A stretch of DNA of 29,703 bases, taken from the IMG/VR virus record IMGVR_UViG_3300042539_001312, positions 1 to 29,703 of that record; one strand, written 5' to 3'. Origin of the DNA: a virus. The position numbers were made by a program, and so were the translations under genes. Shown one piece after another: positions 2,023-15,732 of the stretch. The notes below the pieces were generated by a model, which was given only the letters and a program-made list of their open reading frames with translations, ran no database searches and was not told the DNA's origin. Each line of letters begins with the position of its first letter. The first letter of the stretch is position 1.

Positions 2023-2403
2023 TGGTGGACGTGAGGGGAGTTGAACCCCTGTGCTGTATAATATAACTACAACCATATACATGCTTATCTCTTATAATCC
2101 GACTAAGTTTGGTAGAGCACCACTTAGAAGTTGAGGACTCGTGTTTCTCGCTGTTGTTACGACCCTCGTCCTTACAACAGCAAGCAGATGGTCGAGCGTT
2201 TTATTCTATATATCTGCGTCAATAGATAAAACGGGTAGCAACTTAGGCTACAGCAACTTCGCTCTTACGGCTTACGCTTAGGAACGATGTCTTAGCAAGA
2301 TTTCTCTTAGCATTTATTTTTTCCAACGGGTATTATACAGAGGCATTAGACTCTGTGCATGCGGACTGCATCTACACTATATAGTAGAATCCAGAACACG
2401 CCC
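2023..2403 (-). ncRNA. ssrA: tmRNA (SsrA) with long tag reading frame
   Basis: This RNA rescues stalled ribosomes and tags the unfinished protein. The 5' end GGGCGTGTTCTGGATTC matches the tmRNA consensus, and GGGCGTG pairs over 7 bp with CACGTCC next to the encoded ACCA at 2023-2026. The T arm reads AGGGGTTCAACTCCCCT. The tag frame is at 2243-2311. Its resume codon GCT at 2309-2311 is preceded by AAAAAATAAAT, closely like the AAAAAATAGTC before the E. coli resume codon, including A at -4. The frame gives 22 residues including the first Ala, starting AKRNLAKT and ending SRKSEVAVA, then TAA. A second GCT AAG in frame at 2294 would give a 17-residue tag but has poorer context. At 381 nt its size is normal. 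Confidence 0.95.
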
Positions 2404-4642: not shown

Positions 4643-5497
4643 CTAAAACTTCATGTTTCTGAAGCGTTTTGCTGCTTTTCCCTGAAACTTTCTTATGTCT
4701 GTTCCTGCGTTTGTTTTTAGGAACTCTATGATCTTTTTCAATACTTGCATAAGCATTTTGACATCTTCTTTGGCGTCGTGCCATCCATCAATCTTTACTC
4801 CAAGTGCTTGACCTAACTTACCAAGACTTGAGCTATAGCTTTTGTATTTTGTTTTAGCGAGCAAGCCGTCCAGAACTTGTTTGGCTTCTGGATTTGTTTC
4901 TAATGCTTGTAATGCTGGGATGAAGAAGAATCTGGATATATTCACTGTATCTAATACAGGATATGTCTTCATTGGCGGCAAGCCGTGTAGTTTTCTTCTC
5001 GCCGCAATAACTTTCATATCAAATGTGGCATTATGTGCTAATATCACAACATTCTGATATCTATCCAAAAACTTCTCAAACTCAATCAGTGCTTCTTTTT
5101 CATCAAGCTTTTCTGCGTTTGGCACATCATAACCAGTCATCTTGAGTGCGTCTCTTGGATGAAGGTCTGGCTTACCATACTTCTTTTGTCTGCGTGCCAT
5201 TTCTTTACCAAGATGTTTTGCTTCAGCACTATTTGGATCATTTAATGCGTTGTTTAGTGCAGGTCCAATATTTATCTTTTTGCTAAACTCGCCGATTTCA
5301 TTGAATGTTGAACCATCATATACCATAGCAGCAATATGTGTTACTTGAATATATGATGTGTTTGGTTCTAAGCCAACGGTTTCTGTGTCAAACAATACTA
5401 TTGTTTTACCGTCAAACTGCAAAAACTTTTCTAATACTTCACTTATATTGAAGGAATATAGCTTGGCTTCTTTTAGTATGTCTTTGAGTTTGATCAT
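4643..5497 (-). CDS. DEDDh 3'-5' exonuclease (DnaQ/epsilon-like)
   Basis: A 284-residue exonuclease of the DnaQ fold. Catalytic motifs are FDTET (Asp37, Glu39), HNATFD (Asp160) and WHDAKEDV (His240, Asp245), so it is the DEDDh subtype acting on single-stranded DNA or RNA ends. The start at 5497 is taken because ATATTTATA lies three bases upstream; the longer frame runs through a terminator. The first residues MIKLKDILKEA resemble the capsid-targeting peptide of T4 internal proteins (cleavage after LKE). That would suit an enzyme carried in the virion, but this is inference. A basic tail follows the catalytic domain. Confidence 0.87.
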   Translation of the reverse strand: MIKLKDILKEAKLYSFNISEVLEKFLQFDGKTIVLFDTETVGLEPNTSYIQVTHIAAMVYDGSTFNEIGEFSKKINIGPALNNALNDPNSAEAKHLGKEMARRQKKYGKPDLHPRDALKMTGYDVPNAEKLDEKEALIEFEKFLDRYQNVVILAHNATFDMKVIAARRKLHGLPPMKTYPVLDTVNISRFFFIPALQALETNPEAKQVLDGLLAKTKYKSYSSSLGKLGQALGVKIDGWHDAKEDVKMLMQVLKKIIEFLKTNAGTDIRKFQGKAAKRFRNMKF

Positions 5498-5500
5498 ATC

Positions 5501-5509
5501 TATAAATAT
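5501..5509 (-). promoter_or_regulatory. ATATTTATA start-proximal motif
   Basis: The motif lies three bases before the exonuclease ATG. It would give a nearly leaderless message if it is a -10 element. Confidence 0.45.
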
Positions 5510-5523
5510 AAAGATATAAAAAA

Positions 5524-5547
5524 AGAGGGTGGAGAAATCCACCCTCT
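5524..5547 (-). terminator. Rho-independent terminator
   Basis: A 10-bp stem AGAGGGTGGA/TCCACCCTCT with a GAAA loop and, on the minus strand, a following T tract. It ends the unit containing the 23-residue peptide gene and probably the tyrosinase gene. Confidence 0.9.
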
Positions 5548-5569
5548 ACTGGTTTTCTTTTTTATTGGC

Positions 5570-5641
5570 TTATTTTGAGTAATCTTGGTCGAAAATAATG
5601 ACCAAGCCCAAAACTGCCCAACATACAACGGCTGCTACCAT
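5570..5641 (-). CDS. 23-residue membrane peptide
   Basis: A very short frame, MVAAVVCWAVLGLVIIFDQD then YSK, is almost entirely one hydrophobic helix with a charged end. It has an unusually good ribosome site for this genome (AGGAG about nine bases before the ATG) and is followed by a strong terminator. These two signals are the reason to call it despite its size. It would insert in the inner membrane. Function is unknown. Confidence 0.55.
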   Translation of the reverse strand: MVAAVVCWAVLGLVIIFDQDYSK

Positions 5642-5768
5642 GATATGTTTCTCCTATCTTAGAGCCACAGACCCATAGGTTTGGTGGCTGTTATAACTGA
5701 GCATATAACTATATACCCGATGTTATAATAAATCGCTAAAATAGCAAGTATATTTTACTTTTTATAAA

Positions 5769-7268
5769 CTAACCTATGACTGAAAGCTTGAGGTTTCGTA
5801 TCAACACATCATTCTTGAAGTTTACAAGTTTGAGTTGAAGTTCGAACTTATCGCCGTTTGGTATAACTTCTTTCATCTTTCCAAGATGTCCAACAGTCAT
5901 AGTAAATGAGTGTGTAATGGTTTTGTTTGTTGTACTCGGATCTCCATCCATTATCTTTACTCGACCAATATACTTTCCATTTACATATGCTTTGATGGCA
6001 CATTTTCCAACGTGAAATACTGGTCCTGTTTCTATTTCCAATAATGATGTTCCGCCGTCTATTGCCTTACTAATCAAATCTTTTAACGTATTTTGCGGGC
6101 GAACATACAAAGATAACCCTTCACGTACTGTAGCATATTGATTTATTGGAGCAGATACACTGGCGTAGTTTGTTGATACGCTTGTGGGAACAGTCAAATT
6201 ATTATCGGATGGTACAGCATATGATACTGTGTTCATCTTTGTCATAATATCTTTGATTGTTACAGTAACAGGAGAACCATCAATGTCTGGGAATGTATAT
6301 ACTTGTTGACCCCACGGACCATCAAGATCTGGCATTGGATTTCTGTATAGTGAGAATATGCGATCTATATTTCCGTGATGCATAAAGAATATAGGATCAT
6401 TTGCCGCATATCTTAGAGTTCCCATATTACGATTCTTACCATAACGAGTACCTACCCAATCGTGGCCATCATTGTGTGGTCCAGATTCCACCAACCCTTG
6501 GCCAGTTGCTCTATCTGTAACAGGCTTCCCGCCAAATTGTTCCCAAGGGGTTGTAAGAACAAGATTGATATATTCTGGACTCATATAGTTTTTGCACTCT
6601 TGAACGTGAGCTTTTGAATCTTGTGAAACTTCGTTGTTTGGATCCATTTTGCTCTTTTGTATTGTTGGTCCACGATTTCCGTCAAACAATGCAATGTTGT
6701 CAAATCCAAGATTATCGGCGTTTACCATATTCTCTTGAGTAAGATCATATCCAAACAGCGGACTCGCCAAACCTCTTGCTTCACGTTCTTTTGTGTTTGG
6801 TATTTCTTGATGTGCACACCAATCCCAGAATGGATATGCAAAGGGTACACCGTTGTATCCCAACTTATCCAAACAGTTTGCGAGTATTCTTTCTAAGAAG
6901 AAAATATAGCCACGATGCCAAGGTAGAAAATGCCAACCCCAATGTACTTGAGGGTTTGCTGCATCCGAAGCTGTGCAGTGTTTCATATGAATATTTGCAT
7001 ATGATTCCCATTGGGTAGGTGTTCCCATAGGAAGAGTATTTCGCATATAGTCAACTGCTTTACACAGCGTTCTTACTTCTTCGTCGGTAAGATCATAAAA
7101 GCTTTTGCGAACTCTGTTTGGTTCTTTTCCAAATACAAAAGGTTTTGCGTTTGGATCACACAGTTCAACGGGCTTATTTATTCCACCCGGTTGAGCCGAA
7201 TTCAATGTAGCTACACTGGTCAATCCGATGGCACCAGTACCAATAAATTTTCTTCTTGATATTTTCAT
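5769..7268 (-). CDS. Tat-exported tyrosinase/polyphenol oxidase
   Basis: The 499-residue type-3 copper enzyme should oxidise phenols to quinones. The N-terminus SRRKFIGTGAIGLTSVATLN is a Tat signal, which fits export of a folded copper protein. The CuA site is HC (His97), QVH (His109) and PWHRGYIFFLERIL (His118). The CuB site is GPHNDGHDWV (His265, His269) and DPIFFMHHGNIDRIF (near His297). Spacing resembles plant and bacterial polyphenol oxidases. Residues 375-499 form a beta-rich C-terminal domain like the one that caps the active site in such enzymes. It lies with secreted Ig-like genes. A tyrosinase in a phage is unusual; transfer from a host is likely. Confidence 0.93.
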   Translation of the reverse strand: MKISRRKFIGTGAIGLTSVATLNSAQPGGINKPVELCDPNAKPFVFGKEPNRVRKSFYDLTDEEVRTLCKAVDYMRNTLPMGTPTQWESYANIHMKHCTASDAANPQVHWGWHFLPWHRGYIFFLERILANCLDKLGYNGVPFAYPFWDWCAHQEIPNTKEREARGLASPLFGYDLTQENMVNADNLGFDNIALFDGNRGPTIQKSKMDPNNEVSQDSKAHVQECKNYMSPEYINLVLTTPWEQFGGKPVTDRATGQGLVESGPHNDGHDWVGTRYGKNRNMGTLRYAANDPIFFMHHGNIDRIFSLYRNPMPDLDGPWGQQVYTFPDIDGSPVTVTIKDIMTKMNTVSYAVPSDNNLTVPTSVSTNYASVSAPINQYATVREGLSLYVRPQNTLKDLISKAIDGGTSLLEIETGPVFHVGKCAIKAYVNGKYIGRVKIMDGDPSTTNKTITHSFTMTVGHLGKMKEVIPNGDKFELQLKLVNFKNDVLIRNLKLSVIG

Positions 7269-7305
7269 AACCTATATAACTATAACTATAAAAAATAACA
7301 AAATA

Positions 7306-7914
7306 TCATCTGACTACTAAACTTGTAGTTTCACTTTTTACAAGTCCAGCAGTATTGCGTGCTTCTACTTTATAGTTTCCTGAATCAGCAGTTGTAATAT
7401 TGGCTAGTTTTAGGCTTGCATTTGTTTTGCCCGCTAAAACTACATTATTTTTATACCATACAAATCTTAAAGGTCCAGTTGCAGCAGCATCAACATTTGC
7501 TTTTATAGTAATATCATCGCCAACATATGCATCTGCTTGTAGACTATATAAATCACCTTCAAGCAACCAAAAGTTTCTGCTTATTCTGGTTAGTTTCCAT
7601 TGCGAACCCATTTTTCGCGTTCTAAAAGCATCATCTGATTGTAGTATAACTACGCCATTTTCACCAACAATATTTATTGTACCATCTGATAATGCTGTGC
7701 CATATATTTCTGTACCCGTGCCAAATACGTTGGTTCTTTCAAATGGCACAACAAATCTAACCGTTGAGTTATTTGGCGTCTGCATCGCAATCAAATAACC
7801 AGAATCTCTGTTTGTTATTTTATATTCGGTGCTTGTGCTTATGGTTTTTACATCCAAAGCATATGATGTAAGAGCAACTGTCAAGAATGTCAGTAGTAGA
7901 AATATCTTTTTCAT
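7306..7914 (-). CDS. Secreted protein with C-terminal Ig-like domain
   Basis: The 202-residue protein has a Sec signal (MKKIFLLLTFLTVALTSYA, cut after YA). About 95 beta-rich residues of no known family follow, then an Ig-like domain from residue 105: ITIKANVDAAATGPLRFVWYKN, the paired Trp, and the hallmark TTADSGNYKVEARN before the last strand. Ig-like domains on phage proteins commonly bind carbohydrate or cell surfaces. This one is exported, so it would be free or periplasmic. It lies 37 bases upstream of the tyrosinase and may share its transcript. Confidence 0.75.
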   Translation of the reverse strand: MKKIFLLLTFLTVALTSYALDVKTISTSTEYKITNRDSGYLIAMQTPNNSTVRFVVPFERTNVFGTGTEIYGTALSDGTINIVGENGVVILQSDDAFRTRKMGSQWKLTRISRNFWLLEGDLYSLQADAYVGDDITIKANVDAAATGPLRFVWYKNNVVLAGKTNASLKLANITTADSGNYKVEARNTAGLVKSETTSLVVR

Positions 7915-8031: not shown

Positions 8032-8367
8032 TTATCCGCGAATAATTTGGATTCTAACCTGATTAGGAGCAACTGGCGTAACAACAACAATAGCAAGAGG
8101 ATCGCTATCAGCAGTGCCCCAGTTATTGGTTGCACGAAGCTTGTATGTGCCAGCATCTGTTAGAGCAATGGCATTGAATACAAGATTAGCACCAGTAGCA
8201 ACTTGTACATCATTCTTGAACCACGCAAATGTGATTGGAGTTGTGCCCTGTGCTTCACCAGCAAGTGTGATTTTTGTGCCAGTATATTCTGTTGATTGTG
8301 TTTGAGCAAACAAACTCGTAGCTGAAACTAACAACGCTAAAATGCCTGAGACTAGTAGTTTTTTCAT
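8032..8367 (-). CDS. Secreted single Ig-like domain protein
   Basis: The 111-residue product has a Sec signal (MKKLLVSGILALLVSATSLFA) and then one Ig-like domain: TKITLAGEAQGTTPITFAWFKN and ALTDAGTYKLRATNNWG. The short C-terminal strand ends in IIRG. It shares domain type and signal with the gene at 7306 and is probably a duplicate that lost the middle region. A related ATATTTATG motif is at 8392-8400. It may bind the host envelope or glycans. Function is not known. Confidence 0.75.
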   Translation of the reverse strand: MKKLLVSGILALLVSATSLFAQTQSTEYTGTKITLAGEAQGTTPITFAWFKNDVQVATGANLVFNAIALTDAGTYKLRATNNWGTADSDPLAIVVVTPVAPNQVRIQIIRG

Positions 8368-9496: not shown

Positions 9497-9841
9497 TTAT
9501 TTCGTCAAGAACTTTCTGCGATAAACTGCATATCCCAATCCAATCATTCCTGCAAACAATGCATATGTAGATGGTTCAGGTACCGCAGGGCCACAATAAT
9601 CTTTATCATAACCACCTCCGCCGCCATAATATGGACGCTTGTATTTATCGTCATCATCGTCATCATCTTCATCGTCATCATCCCAATCATAACTGCTGCT
9701 CATACTAATCATCTGCACAGGGTCTGTATATGACGGCTGAAATGTGCTCATAATATCATAATTACCAAAATCTACAACAGAGTCATTGGCAAAAATGCCG
9801 CTAACAAACATAGTAAAGATAAACAATAGTTTCTTATTCAT
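9497..9841 (-). CDS. Secreted PEP-CTERM protein with acidic Asp tract
   Basis: The 114-residue protein has a Sec signal (MNKKLLFIFTMFVSGIFA), a short polar middle, and then DWDDDDEDDDDDDDKYKRPYY, a run almost wholly of Asp. A Gly-rich stretch follows. It ends with a textbook PEP-CTERM sorting signal: VPEPSTYALFAGMIGLGYAV followed by YRRKF. PEP-CTERM proteins are processed by a host exosortase in exopolysaccharide-making Gram-negative bacteria, so this gene points strongly to such a host. The Asp tract may bind calcium or cations. Its presence on a phage is notable. Confidence 0.88.
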   Translation of the reverse strand: MNKKLLFIFTMFVSGIFANDSVVDFGNYDIMSTFQPSYTDPVQMISMSSSYDWDDDDEDDDDDDDKYKRPYYGGGGGYDKDYCGPAVPEPSTYALFAGMIGLGYAVYRRKFLTK

Positions 9842-13217: not shown

Positions 13218-15182
13218 TCAAGGCTTTGGAGGCAGGAATGTGCCTGTACCAGCATTGACTGGATATACTCCACTCAAGTTGGCAGCAAAACTCAATGCAC
13301 TCAAGTCTGTTACTCCCTTGGCATTGAATGTAAGTGCCGAGGTCTTTAACAGATTGGACAGCGTGATACTGCCACCCGCAGTCAGGGTCAAGGGGCCGAC
13401 CACAGAGTTGGTCGCCTGTGCAGATGTATTGAAGATATCCGCACCGCTGGTAACGCTAGTAACGCCGCCGTTCAATAGACCAATGTTAGCAGAAGCAAGT
13501 TCAACAACATTGATTGCACCGGTACCAGTAGTGATAGAGATCAAGCCAAAGTTGTTATTTGGCTGAGTCAGTGCCACTTCAGCATTGTTGGTGTTTACAG
13601 TAACATTGCCACGAACATCGGCGGATGTAGCAGGTACTTGAGTAACTGTGGAGCCCTCAAGACCAACTGTAGATACAGTCAAGTTACCACCAACAACGGT
13701 AGTACCAAGAACTGTGCTGCGAGCCTGTGTGATATTAGCATCAGCAGTAGCAGTCAGCGTAACATTACCGAGGTTGTTTAGACCAGCAGGGTTGTTAAGA
13801 GTAACATTGCCACCAGACAGATTGCTAGTAGCAGCAGTCACGCGGCTAGTAGCCAGCAACTGTACGATGTCGTTCTTGCTAGCAGCAACCAGATTGCCAG
13901 TAACAGCAACACGGTTCAAGTTCAGCGTAGCGTCTTCAAGGATAGTAGCATTACCACCAACGGTCAGACTTACAGGACCAAAACTGTGCTTGGCGCGTGT
14001 AATATTAGTGTCACCAGTTGTAACAAAGGCTGTTGGACCATATACGAACAGTCCTTCAGCACCATCAACGACGCTAGGAGCGGTGAATGTAGTGTTACCT
14101 GTGCTAGCAATAGCAACCTTATTCAGCGAGACGCGGGAGTTGGCAGATACATTAGTATCACCAGTTCCGCTGCTGGCAACATCAGTAAGATTTACCATGT
14201 TACCAGACAATGTCAGGTTACCAGCAGCAAGTGCGGTATAGTTAGTAGTAGCAGCAGTGCTGGCTACAACAATATTGTTACCAGACACAGTCACATTTGT
14301 GCTAGAAACTCTGGGTAAAGAAATGTCCTTACCAGACACAGCCAGATTGGCAACATTGAGTGTACCAGTTCCCTGCGTAACTGCACCAGCAGCAATAGTA
14401 CCGGTGGCATTGATAGTGATGTTACCCGTGGATGTAATAAATCCATTCGGAGCAATCACGACGCTTCCGCCAGATGTAGACACATCAGTCTTGCCGTTGA
14501 GCACCATGGGAGCAGATGCAGACGAACCAATCGTGACTGTGCCACCATAGGTATTGACAACAAGGTTACCAGTTACTACAGCACCACCGATATTAGCAGC
14601 ACGCGAAGCAATTGTGATACTATCACCAACAGACTGAATGATGGCACCATCATTTACGGTGACACCGTTAACCAGAACGCTGGTGGGTAGATTGTCTTGG
14701 CTGGGCAACTTACCATTGGTATTCCAGTATCCAAGAGATACAGTGGGATCATCCACAGTGCTAACATATAGTCCAGCAACATTGATGGTGCTGGTGCCGC
14801 CGATCAAAACGCCACCCGGATTAAGGATAAACACTTTGCCATTGGACTCAATAGCACCGTTGATTGTAGATGCTGCTCCACCAGTAACAATGTTTAGAAC
14901 AGATGAACCGGCAGACGGCAGTGTATATTCAATGCGTTCACCCGTATTGAATGTGCTTGTGCCGCTACCAAATGCCTGCCAAGACAACACGGCCTTGTTT
15001 GGTGCAGAAACATTCAGCGTGGTCGCTGTTCCTGTTACATTTACACCCGTTGTGGTTTGTAGATTGCTGACATCAATGCTAGGAATAGCAAAGACATAAC
15101 CAGCGAATACAAACGCCATGAACAAAGAAAAAGTCTTTGTCCAAAACGAGTTATTTCGTGTATTAGTATTATTGTATTTCAT
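13218..15182 (-). CDS. Filamentous-haemagglutinin-type secreted protein
   Basis: The 654-residue product has an extended signal (FWTKTFSLFMAFVFAGYVFA), then a TPS-type secretion domain with the diagnostic SNGKVFILNPGGVLIGGTST and INVAGLYVSTVDD near residue 125. After this come roughly 20-residue repeats of the form NVTVSGNNIVV / GNLTVST, predicted to stack as a beta-helix rich in Ala, Thr, Val and Asn. It ends without an anchor at TFLPPKP. The start is the ATG at 15182; the longer frame is low complexity. No TpsB transporter is seen here. GC content is higher than in neighbours, which suggests transfer from a host. Confidence 0.85.
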   Translation of the reverse strand: MKYNNTNTRNNSFWTKTFSLFMAFVFAGYVFAIPSIDVSNLQTTTGVNVTGTATTLNVSAPNKAVLSWQAFGSGTSTFNTGERIEYTLPSAGSSVLNIVTGGAASTINGAIESNGKVFILNPGGVLIGGTSTINVAGLYVSTVDDPTVSLGYWNTNGKLPSQDNLPTSVLVNGVTVNDGAIIQSVGDSITIASRAANIGGAVVTGNLVVNTYGGTVTIGSSASAPMVLNGKTDVSTSGGSVVIAPNGFITSTGNITINATGTIAAGAVTQGTGTLNVANLAVSGKDISLPRVSSTNVTVSGNNIVVASTAATTNYTALAAGNLTLSGNMVNLTDVASSGTGDTNVSANSRVSLNKVAIASTGNTTFTAPSVVDGAEGLFVYGPTAFVTTGDTNITRAKHSFGPVSLTVGGNATILEDATLNLNRVAVTGNLVAASKNDIVQLLATSRVTAATSNLSGGNVTLNNPAGLNNLGNVTLTATADANITQARSTVLGTTVVGGNLTVSTVGLEGSTVTQVPATSADVRGNVTVNTNNAEVALTQPNNNFGLISITTGTGAINVVELASANIGLLNGGVTSVTSGADIFNTSAQATNSVVGPLTLTAGGSITLSNLLKTSALTFNAKGVTDLSALSFAANLSGVYPVNAGTGTFLPPKP

Positions 15183-15306
15183 ATTTATTTTATGTATTTG
15201 TCTTTTACGACTTTGAACCGATAAATATACACGTATATACGACAGCGTCAAGTAAAAACTTCTTATATATATTTTTATATATACGATTTGATATATATTA
15301 TCACTT

Positions 15307-15732
15307 ATGTACACATATAAATGCCGCATCAACAAAGTTTTAGACGGTGACACCGTTGAAATAGATTTGGACTTGGGTTTCAATACAACCCTAGCTAACC
15401 AAAAAGTAAGATTGCTTGGTATAGACGCACCAGAATCTCGTACAACAAACAAAGAAGAAAAAGTGCGTGGTGCTCTTTCTAAAAAGAAACTACAAGAAAA
15501 ACTACCTGTAGGTTGTTCTGTAAAGATTATTACTCACAAGAATGATAATAACGACGACAAGTTTGGCCGCATACTTGGCGAGTTTATTCTTGATGATGGC
15601 ACCAATCTAAACAAGTGGATGATAGAGAATAACTATGCTGTTCCTTATCTTGGCGAAAATAAGGAACTGGTGCAAGAAGCACATCAAATCAATAAGAAGA
15701 AACTTATTGAGCGTGGCGAGTTGACTGCTTAA
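15307..15732 (+). CDS. Thermonuclease (SNase-like nuclease)
   Basis: A 141-residue staphylococcal-nuclease fold: INKVLDGDTVEIDLDLGF (Asp13, Asp15), VRLLGIDAPESRT (Arg35, Asp40, Glu43) and KFGRILGEF (Arg88). These match the calcium site, general base and the two catalytic Arg, so it should be active on DNA and RNA. There is no signal peptide, so it works in the cytoplasm or is carried in the virion. It is a lone plus-strand gene whose stop overlaps by four bases the stop of the converging beta-helix gene. Confidence 0.92.
   Translation: MYTYKCRINKVLDGDTVEIDLDLGFNTTLANQKVRLLGIDAPESRTTNKEEKVRGALSKKKLQEKLPVGCSVKIITHKNDNNDDKFGRILGEFILDDGTNLNKWMIENNYAVPYLGENKELVQEAHQINKKKLIERGELTA

Follow-up and report, generated by a model that had tools for sequence, protein, structure and literature searches.

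Identity and predicted structure of the phage tyrosinase

Contractile-tailed jumbo phages carry, as a recurrent auxiliary gene, a predicted Tat-exported tyrosinase that resembles the latent two-domain polyphenol oxidases (PPOs) of plants. We have little doubt about its identity as a tyrosinase, its phage location and its export taken together, and both catalysis and export are well-supported predictions. The window, that is, the whole stretch of DNA analysed (G000, an IMG/VR record of 29,703 bp), encodes the enzyme in the following features:

5769..7268, minus strand: tyrosinase/polyphenol oxidase gene (499 aa; Tat signal, catalytic domain and C-terminal lid domain; PF00264)
7188..7268, minus strand: twin-arginine signal region, residues 1-27 (MKISRRKFIG...), with the RR-x-F motif
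6915..6989, minus strand: CuA site with H94, C98 (thioether-type cysteine), H109 and H118, from alignment to 2P3X and 5CE9
6375..6488, minus strand: CuB site with E261, H265, N266, H269, D270, L285 and H298, from alignments
5772..6191, minus strand: predicted beta-sandwich domain at the C-terminus (residues 360-499), comparable to the lid of latent PPOs, from the model and its full-length Foldseek matches

The ORF starts with ATG, has no internal stops, and its product matched the Pfam Tyrosinase family with an E-value of 2.7e-34 (119.9 bits vs. a cut-off of 22.6). The tyrosinase check was positive in none of 14 control genomes, and no PHROG family matched the protein at the threshold applied. 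The Pfam match and the presence of all six copper-ligand histidines bore out the sequence-only reading of the gene as a tyrosinase, and, judged from its residues, the product is an intact type-3 copper tyrosinase/polyphenol oxidase. The N-terminus (MKISRRKFIGTGAIG) has a Tat-type RR-x-F motif (S-R-R-K-F-I, residues 4-9) ahead of a moderately hydrophobic stretch. On the NCBIfam Tat model the protein scored 12.0 bits, below the cut-off of 16.7, so the case for the Tat signal claimed earlier rests on the RR-x-F motif, which every complete homologue has kept and which supports that claim.

H94, C98, H109 and H118 lined up with the CuA sites of grape PPO (2P3X) and walnut tyrosinase (5CE9), and the spacing is the plant-type HxxxC. 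The CuB ligands are H265, H269 and H298. By our own assignment from the alignment, E261 would be the waterkeeper, N266 the first activity-controller and L285 the gate position, as such positions have been described for the Verrucomicrobium spinosum tyrosinase (PMC10526336). The six ligands, C98, E261, N266, D270 and L285 were identical in 14 of 14 aligned proteins (13 from phages and one from Verrucomicrobia), and the predicted active site resembles that of enzymes with monophenolase activity.

An earlier AlphaFold model built with 15 close homologues only had a mean pLDDT of 48.8; when sequences of a second phage group (see below) were added, the model from 25 sequences reached 78.5 with a pTM of 0.83, and the C-terminal domain of roughly 140 residues was mostly at pLDDT 80-93. 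The best full-length PDB matches of the model by Foldseek were the latent two-domain PPOs 4z13, 6hqj and 6els, indicating that the C-terminus is probably a beta-sandwich domain like their lid. Aurone synthase (TM about 0.6) ranked first, followed by tomato and apple PPO and then by the Ralstonia and Hahella tyrosinases, with the V. spinosum core lower. By sequence and predicted structure, the phage tyrosinase thus belongs to the two-domain latent PPO kind. A library of predicted viral protein structures gave only partial matches (TMq <=0.18), and no tyrosinase fold was seen there.

The latent plant PPOs (aurone synthase 4z13/4z14, tomato 6hqj, apple 6els) share the two-domain architecture and the CuA spacing with the phage enzyme and were its top fold matches (TM about 0.55-0.62, about 20% identity). 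However, they have plastid targeting instead of a Tat signal and Phe instead of Leu at the gate. The V. spinosum tyrosinase (vsTyr, PDB 8BBQ) is a Tat-exported two-domain bacterial tyrosinase which shares with the phage enzyme the Asn after HisB1, the Leu gate position, the waterkeeper Glu and the Cys-His thioether (PMC10526336). It differs in that its cysteine lies in C-x-H rather than in the plant-type HxxxC and HisB2 is followed by Asn rather than by the Asp of the virus-encoded enzyme, and its structural match was weaker than that of the latent plant PPOs. The bacterial tyrosinases of Ralstonia (7xio) and Hahella (8b74) matched the model over the full length of their structures, though with 18-19% identity in the structural alignment, and they are cellular genes.

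Phage location of the gene

Over its whole length, the window matched a section of a 64.9-kb viral contig at 99.997% identity; the two possibly come from the same population or dataset. Matches to the window were seen in G001 and G003. Besides the 64.9-kb contig, two more contigs had the tyrosinase gene with one nucleotide difference, and their flanking blocks were 91-98% identical. Between the window and G003 the gene had one mismatch in 1,500. Positions 1001-2250 and 5500-7300 of the window are near-identical blocks in this comparison amid stretches of much lower identity, and this mosaic suggests recombination among related jumbo phages. A sweep specific to the tyrosinase was considered for this pair and rejected, as the near-identity of the gene belongs to the mosaic together with the other identical blocks.

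A 297-kb contig (G013) was syntenic with the window and had PHROG matches to major head, portal, tail sheath, DNA polymerase, rIIA/rIIB, UvsX and ribonucleotide reductase, besides a terminase, about 36 tRNAs and a tmRNA. A 109-kb contig (G016; GC 51%) with a tyrosinase 53-55% identical carried terminase, portal, major head, sheath and baseplate genes, and a 59-kb contig (G008) carried DNA polymerase, rIIA/rIIB and UvsX. Besides G013 and G016, six more contigs with a tyrosinase had terminase and/or sheath. It is hardly credible, in our view, that the tyrosinase contig is an assembly chimera or bacterial DNA taken for virus. Such an origin could appeal to the few structural phage genes in the window alone and to a related tyrosinase fragment, itself chimeric, in one MAG contig. 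However, the gene and its neighbours are repeated across separate IMG/VR records, the contigs bearing it also bear phage hallmarks, and a tmRNA and many tRNAs accompany it. Because of this recurrence and these hallmarks, neither a chimera nor a host fragment explains the gene, and the phage location proposed at the outset stands, extending to a contractile-tailed jumbo phage.

The MAG fragment just mentioned (L016:533-829, Candidatus Fonsibacter) was rejected as a homologue: it joins the N-terminal 72 aa of a phage-type tyrosinase to unrelated sequence, an artefact that is probably a misassembly in the public MAG.

Distribution and evolution

Scans of IMG/VR for the Tat-type subfamily levelled off at 18 contigs beyond the window, 42-100% identical, giving 19 viral contigs in all; the complete copies (n=17) were all intact. 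Scanning genome contigs with subfamily-specific motif patterns yielded one real cellular relative, a protein of the Verrucomicrobia MAG K_DeepCast_0m_m1_144 (L015). It belongs to the subfamily, with 47-48% identity, the Tat motif and the active-site residues, but its C-terminus is longer and it sits among cellular-looking genes on a GC-rich contig. No further strong match came from profile searches in genomes around this MAG, 384 at class level and 320 at order level (overlapping samples).

A general CuB DNA pattern retrieved 31 viral contigs, 17 with the Tat-type family and 14 with a second group (L115-L128, on contigs G650-G663 of 20 to 476 kb). The second-group proteins have 454-513 aa and are 21-24% identical to the window protein, and 11 of their 12 distinct sequences formed one fully supported clade in the tree, with L118 apart on a long branch. 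Residue reading showed a lipobox-like motif in 10 of the 14 and other N-terminal hydrophobic or uncertain signals in the rest. Terminase and tail sheath were both present on G650, G652, G655 and G661, and terminase on G659. Two distinct groups on jumbo phages indicate that tyrosinase carriage probably has more than one origin, or else is very ancient, and the export signals in both suggest that the enzymes act at the envelope or beyond it. The sequence-only reading had called phage-borne exported copper oxidases rare. That holds for catalogued phages, as none of 50,697 phage records matched either tyrosinase group, but it understates the environmental jumbo phages, where the two groups together add 32 viral contigs to the window.

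Pairs of phage tyrosinases had dN/dS of 0.10-0.22 (several pairs being near synonymous saturation), and the GC of the gene tracked that of the contig from 31% to 52%, indicating long residence under purifying selection. In the tree, the Verrucomicrobia copy was nested within the phage diversity with weak support. The single cellular relative found, which is in a Verrucomicrobia MAG, would be in keeping with a passenger or decayed host gene that has no role in infection, a reading we consider improbable in view of the 17 complete intact copies, the invariant ligands, the low dN/dS and the retention of the gene by phages differing in gene content and GC. Auxiliary metabolic genes such as psbA are host-type enzymes that lytic phages retain under purifying selection. 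The phage tyrosinase differs from these in being an exported copper phenol oxidase.

Proposed role during infection

Three genes on the strand of the tyrosinase lie close to it:

4643..5542, minus strand: phage exonuclease gene, downstream of the tyrosinase (PHROG DNA polymerase exonuclease subunit, E 2.6e-16)
7306..7914, minus strand: signal-peptide protein with Ig domain (Pfam Ig; PHROG Hoc-like; signal by reading)
8032..8367, minus strand: second small exported Ig-domain protein (Pfam Ig_2, E 1.4e-9)

In the 297-kb phage, too, the exonuclease gene lies close to the tyrosinase. The gene at 7306..7914 is directly upstream of the tyrosinase with a gap of 37 bases and is a possible operon partner. 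The exported neighbour genes were not conserved alongside the tyrosinase in other phages.

In the explanation we favour, contractile-tailed jumbo phages would have kept the tyrosinase over a long time as an auxiliary gene, and it would encode a two-domain pro-tyrosinase. By analogy with its family, the protein would fold and take up its two copper ions while still in the host cytoplasm and leave in the folded state through the host Tat system. Its C-terminal domain is predicted to shield the catalytic centre until cleavage or displacement beyond the inner membrane, where the enzyme, with O2, would hydroxylate phenols or tyrosyl residues and oxidise them to o-quinones; mono- plus diphenolase activity is predicted from the family, with N266 and E261 present and the aliphatic L285 at the gate. 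The phage may benefit in that quinones formed locally in the envelope cross-link the surface proteins of the infected cell or otherwise modify them, and the most plausible outcome would be that the entry of competing phages is limited or the envelope is stabilised until lysis. The ligands, the two-domain fold, the RR motif, the phage hallmarks, dN/dS, GC and the export-type N-termini of the second group are consistent with this explanation, as are the exported Ig-domain genes upstream on the same strand. As a whole, including the role in the envelope, we put it forward tentatively and somewhat short of probable, with oxidation of small phenols following close behind; both are roles that we infer. 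The sequence-only reading had proposed crosslinking of host surface proteins, the making of quinones or melanin, and hardening of the envelope, all of which are possible.

In the latter case, the targets of the exported enzyme would be phenolics dissolved outside the infected cell, which it would oxidise either to detoxify them or to form a melanin-like pigment as a shield for the cell or the virions. The chemistry and export would be identical to those of envelope cross-linking, V. spinosum and plant PPOs use small phenols (PMC10526336), and auxiliary genes of such type are usually read as metabolic. However, within the window we recognised no genes for phenol catabolism or for a melanin pathway in the vicinity of the tyrosinase, and it is hard to see the gain within one lytic cycle. 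We regard this reading as a serious though somewhat unlikely one. It is quite unlikely that the enzyme is packaged or late-acting and cross-links virion or lysis-related proteins. The upstream Ig-domain gene is indeed akin to Hoc-like head decoration, and further exported and beta-rich phage proteins are encoded close by, but head assembly takes place in the cytoplasm, from which a Tat signal removes the protein, and the tyrosinase is not fused to a structural protein.

Extending envelope cross-linking to both groups, jumbo phage lineages may have acquired distinct tyrosinases (Tat-exported in one group, mostly lipoprotein-type in the other) for cross-linking or quinone tanning of the infected cell's envelope, resulting in superinfection exclusion or reinforcement. 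We consider this rather unlikely as a general account; if true, it would be a copper-enzyme strategy not previously described in phages. An earlier phage tyrosinase was not found in the literature searched, which covered few subscription papers, nor in PMC9402790, PMC12147045, PMC12724203 and PMC10454208. As a phage gene, the tyrosinase is thus new in every source searched, although the enzyme class is known. A conserved exported enzyme dependent on O2 and copper that recurs in jumbo phages would suggest that infection involves chemistry in the periplasm or at the surface, and Tat-dependent export, envelope cross-links and altered phage adsorption are direct predictions. The phage-enriched subfamily of two-domain tyrosinases defined here may also be of use as enzymes.

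Other phage genes and probable host

Two further proteins encoded in the window are of note. A PEP-CTERM protein (9497-9841, minus strand) is rich in Asp (15.8%) and Tyr (9.6%, with YKRPYYGGGGGYDKDY) and is a conceivable tyrosinase substrate; its PEP-CTERM motif was confined to the window and two near-identical contigs. The other (13218-15452, minus strand) is an exported protein that has a TPS secretion domain of the filamentous-haemagglutinin type, with matches in 53 of 141 Verrucomicrobia-class genomes. The hosts are probably Gram-negative, and the MAG relative, the PEP-CTERM protein and the TPS-protein matches suggest Verrucomicrobiota. Host assignment from the TPS-domain protein is weak because the domain is widespread.

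At six phage loci, small signal-peptide beta-barrel-like proteins with a C-terminal Phe were encoded within about 5 kb of the tyrosinase:

1216-1932 of the window: barrel-like protein, matching Gcw_chp/TorF
L008:5066-5776: barrel-like protein
L010:9757-10515: barrel-like protein
L018:3129-3878: barrel-like protein
L043:8295-9008: barrel-like protein
L071:6462-7175: barrel-like protein

A conserved outer-membrane-like barrel near the tyrosinase was rejected: these proteins look alike (signal, about 240 aa) but hhalign did not show homology between phage groups, and we therefore claim no link between barrel and tyrosinase.

Full tmRNA genes (Rfam, 91.1 bits) were present at 2023-2403 (minus strand) of the window, beside about 16-19 tRNAs, and at L043:7795-8185. 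A UV-damage endonuclease, UvdE, is encoded at 172-1131 of the window (minus strand, E 2e-44) and is conserved in related phages. About 1.2 kb from the tyrosinase of another phage, a protein that appeared rubrerythrin-like by reading only (L019:8234-8695) may provide a link to oxidative stress.
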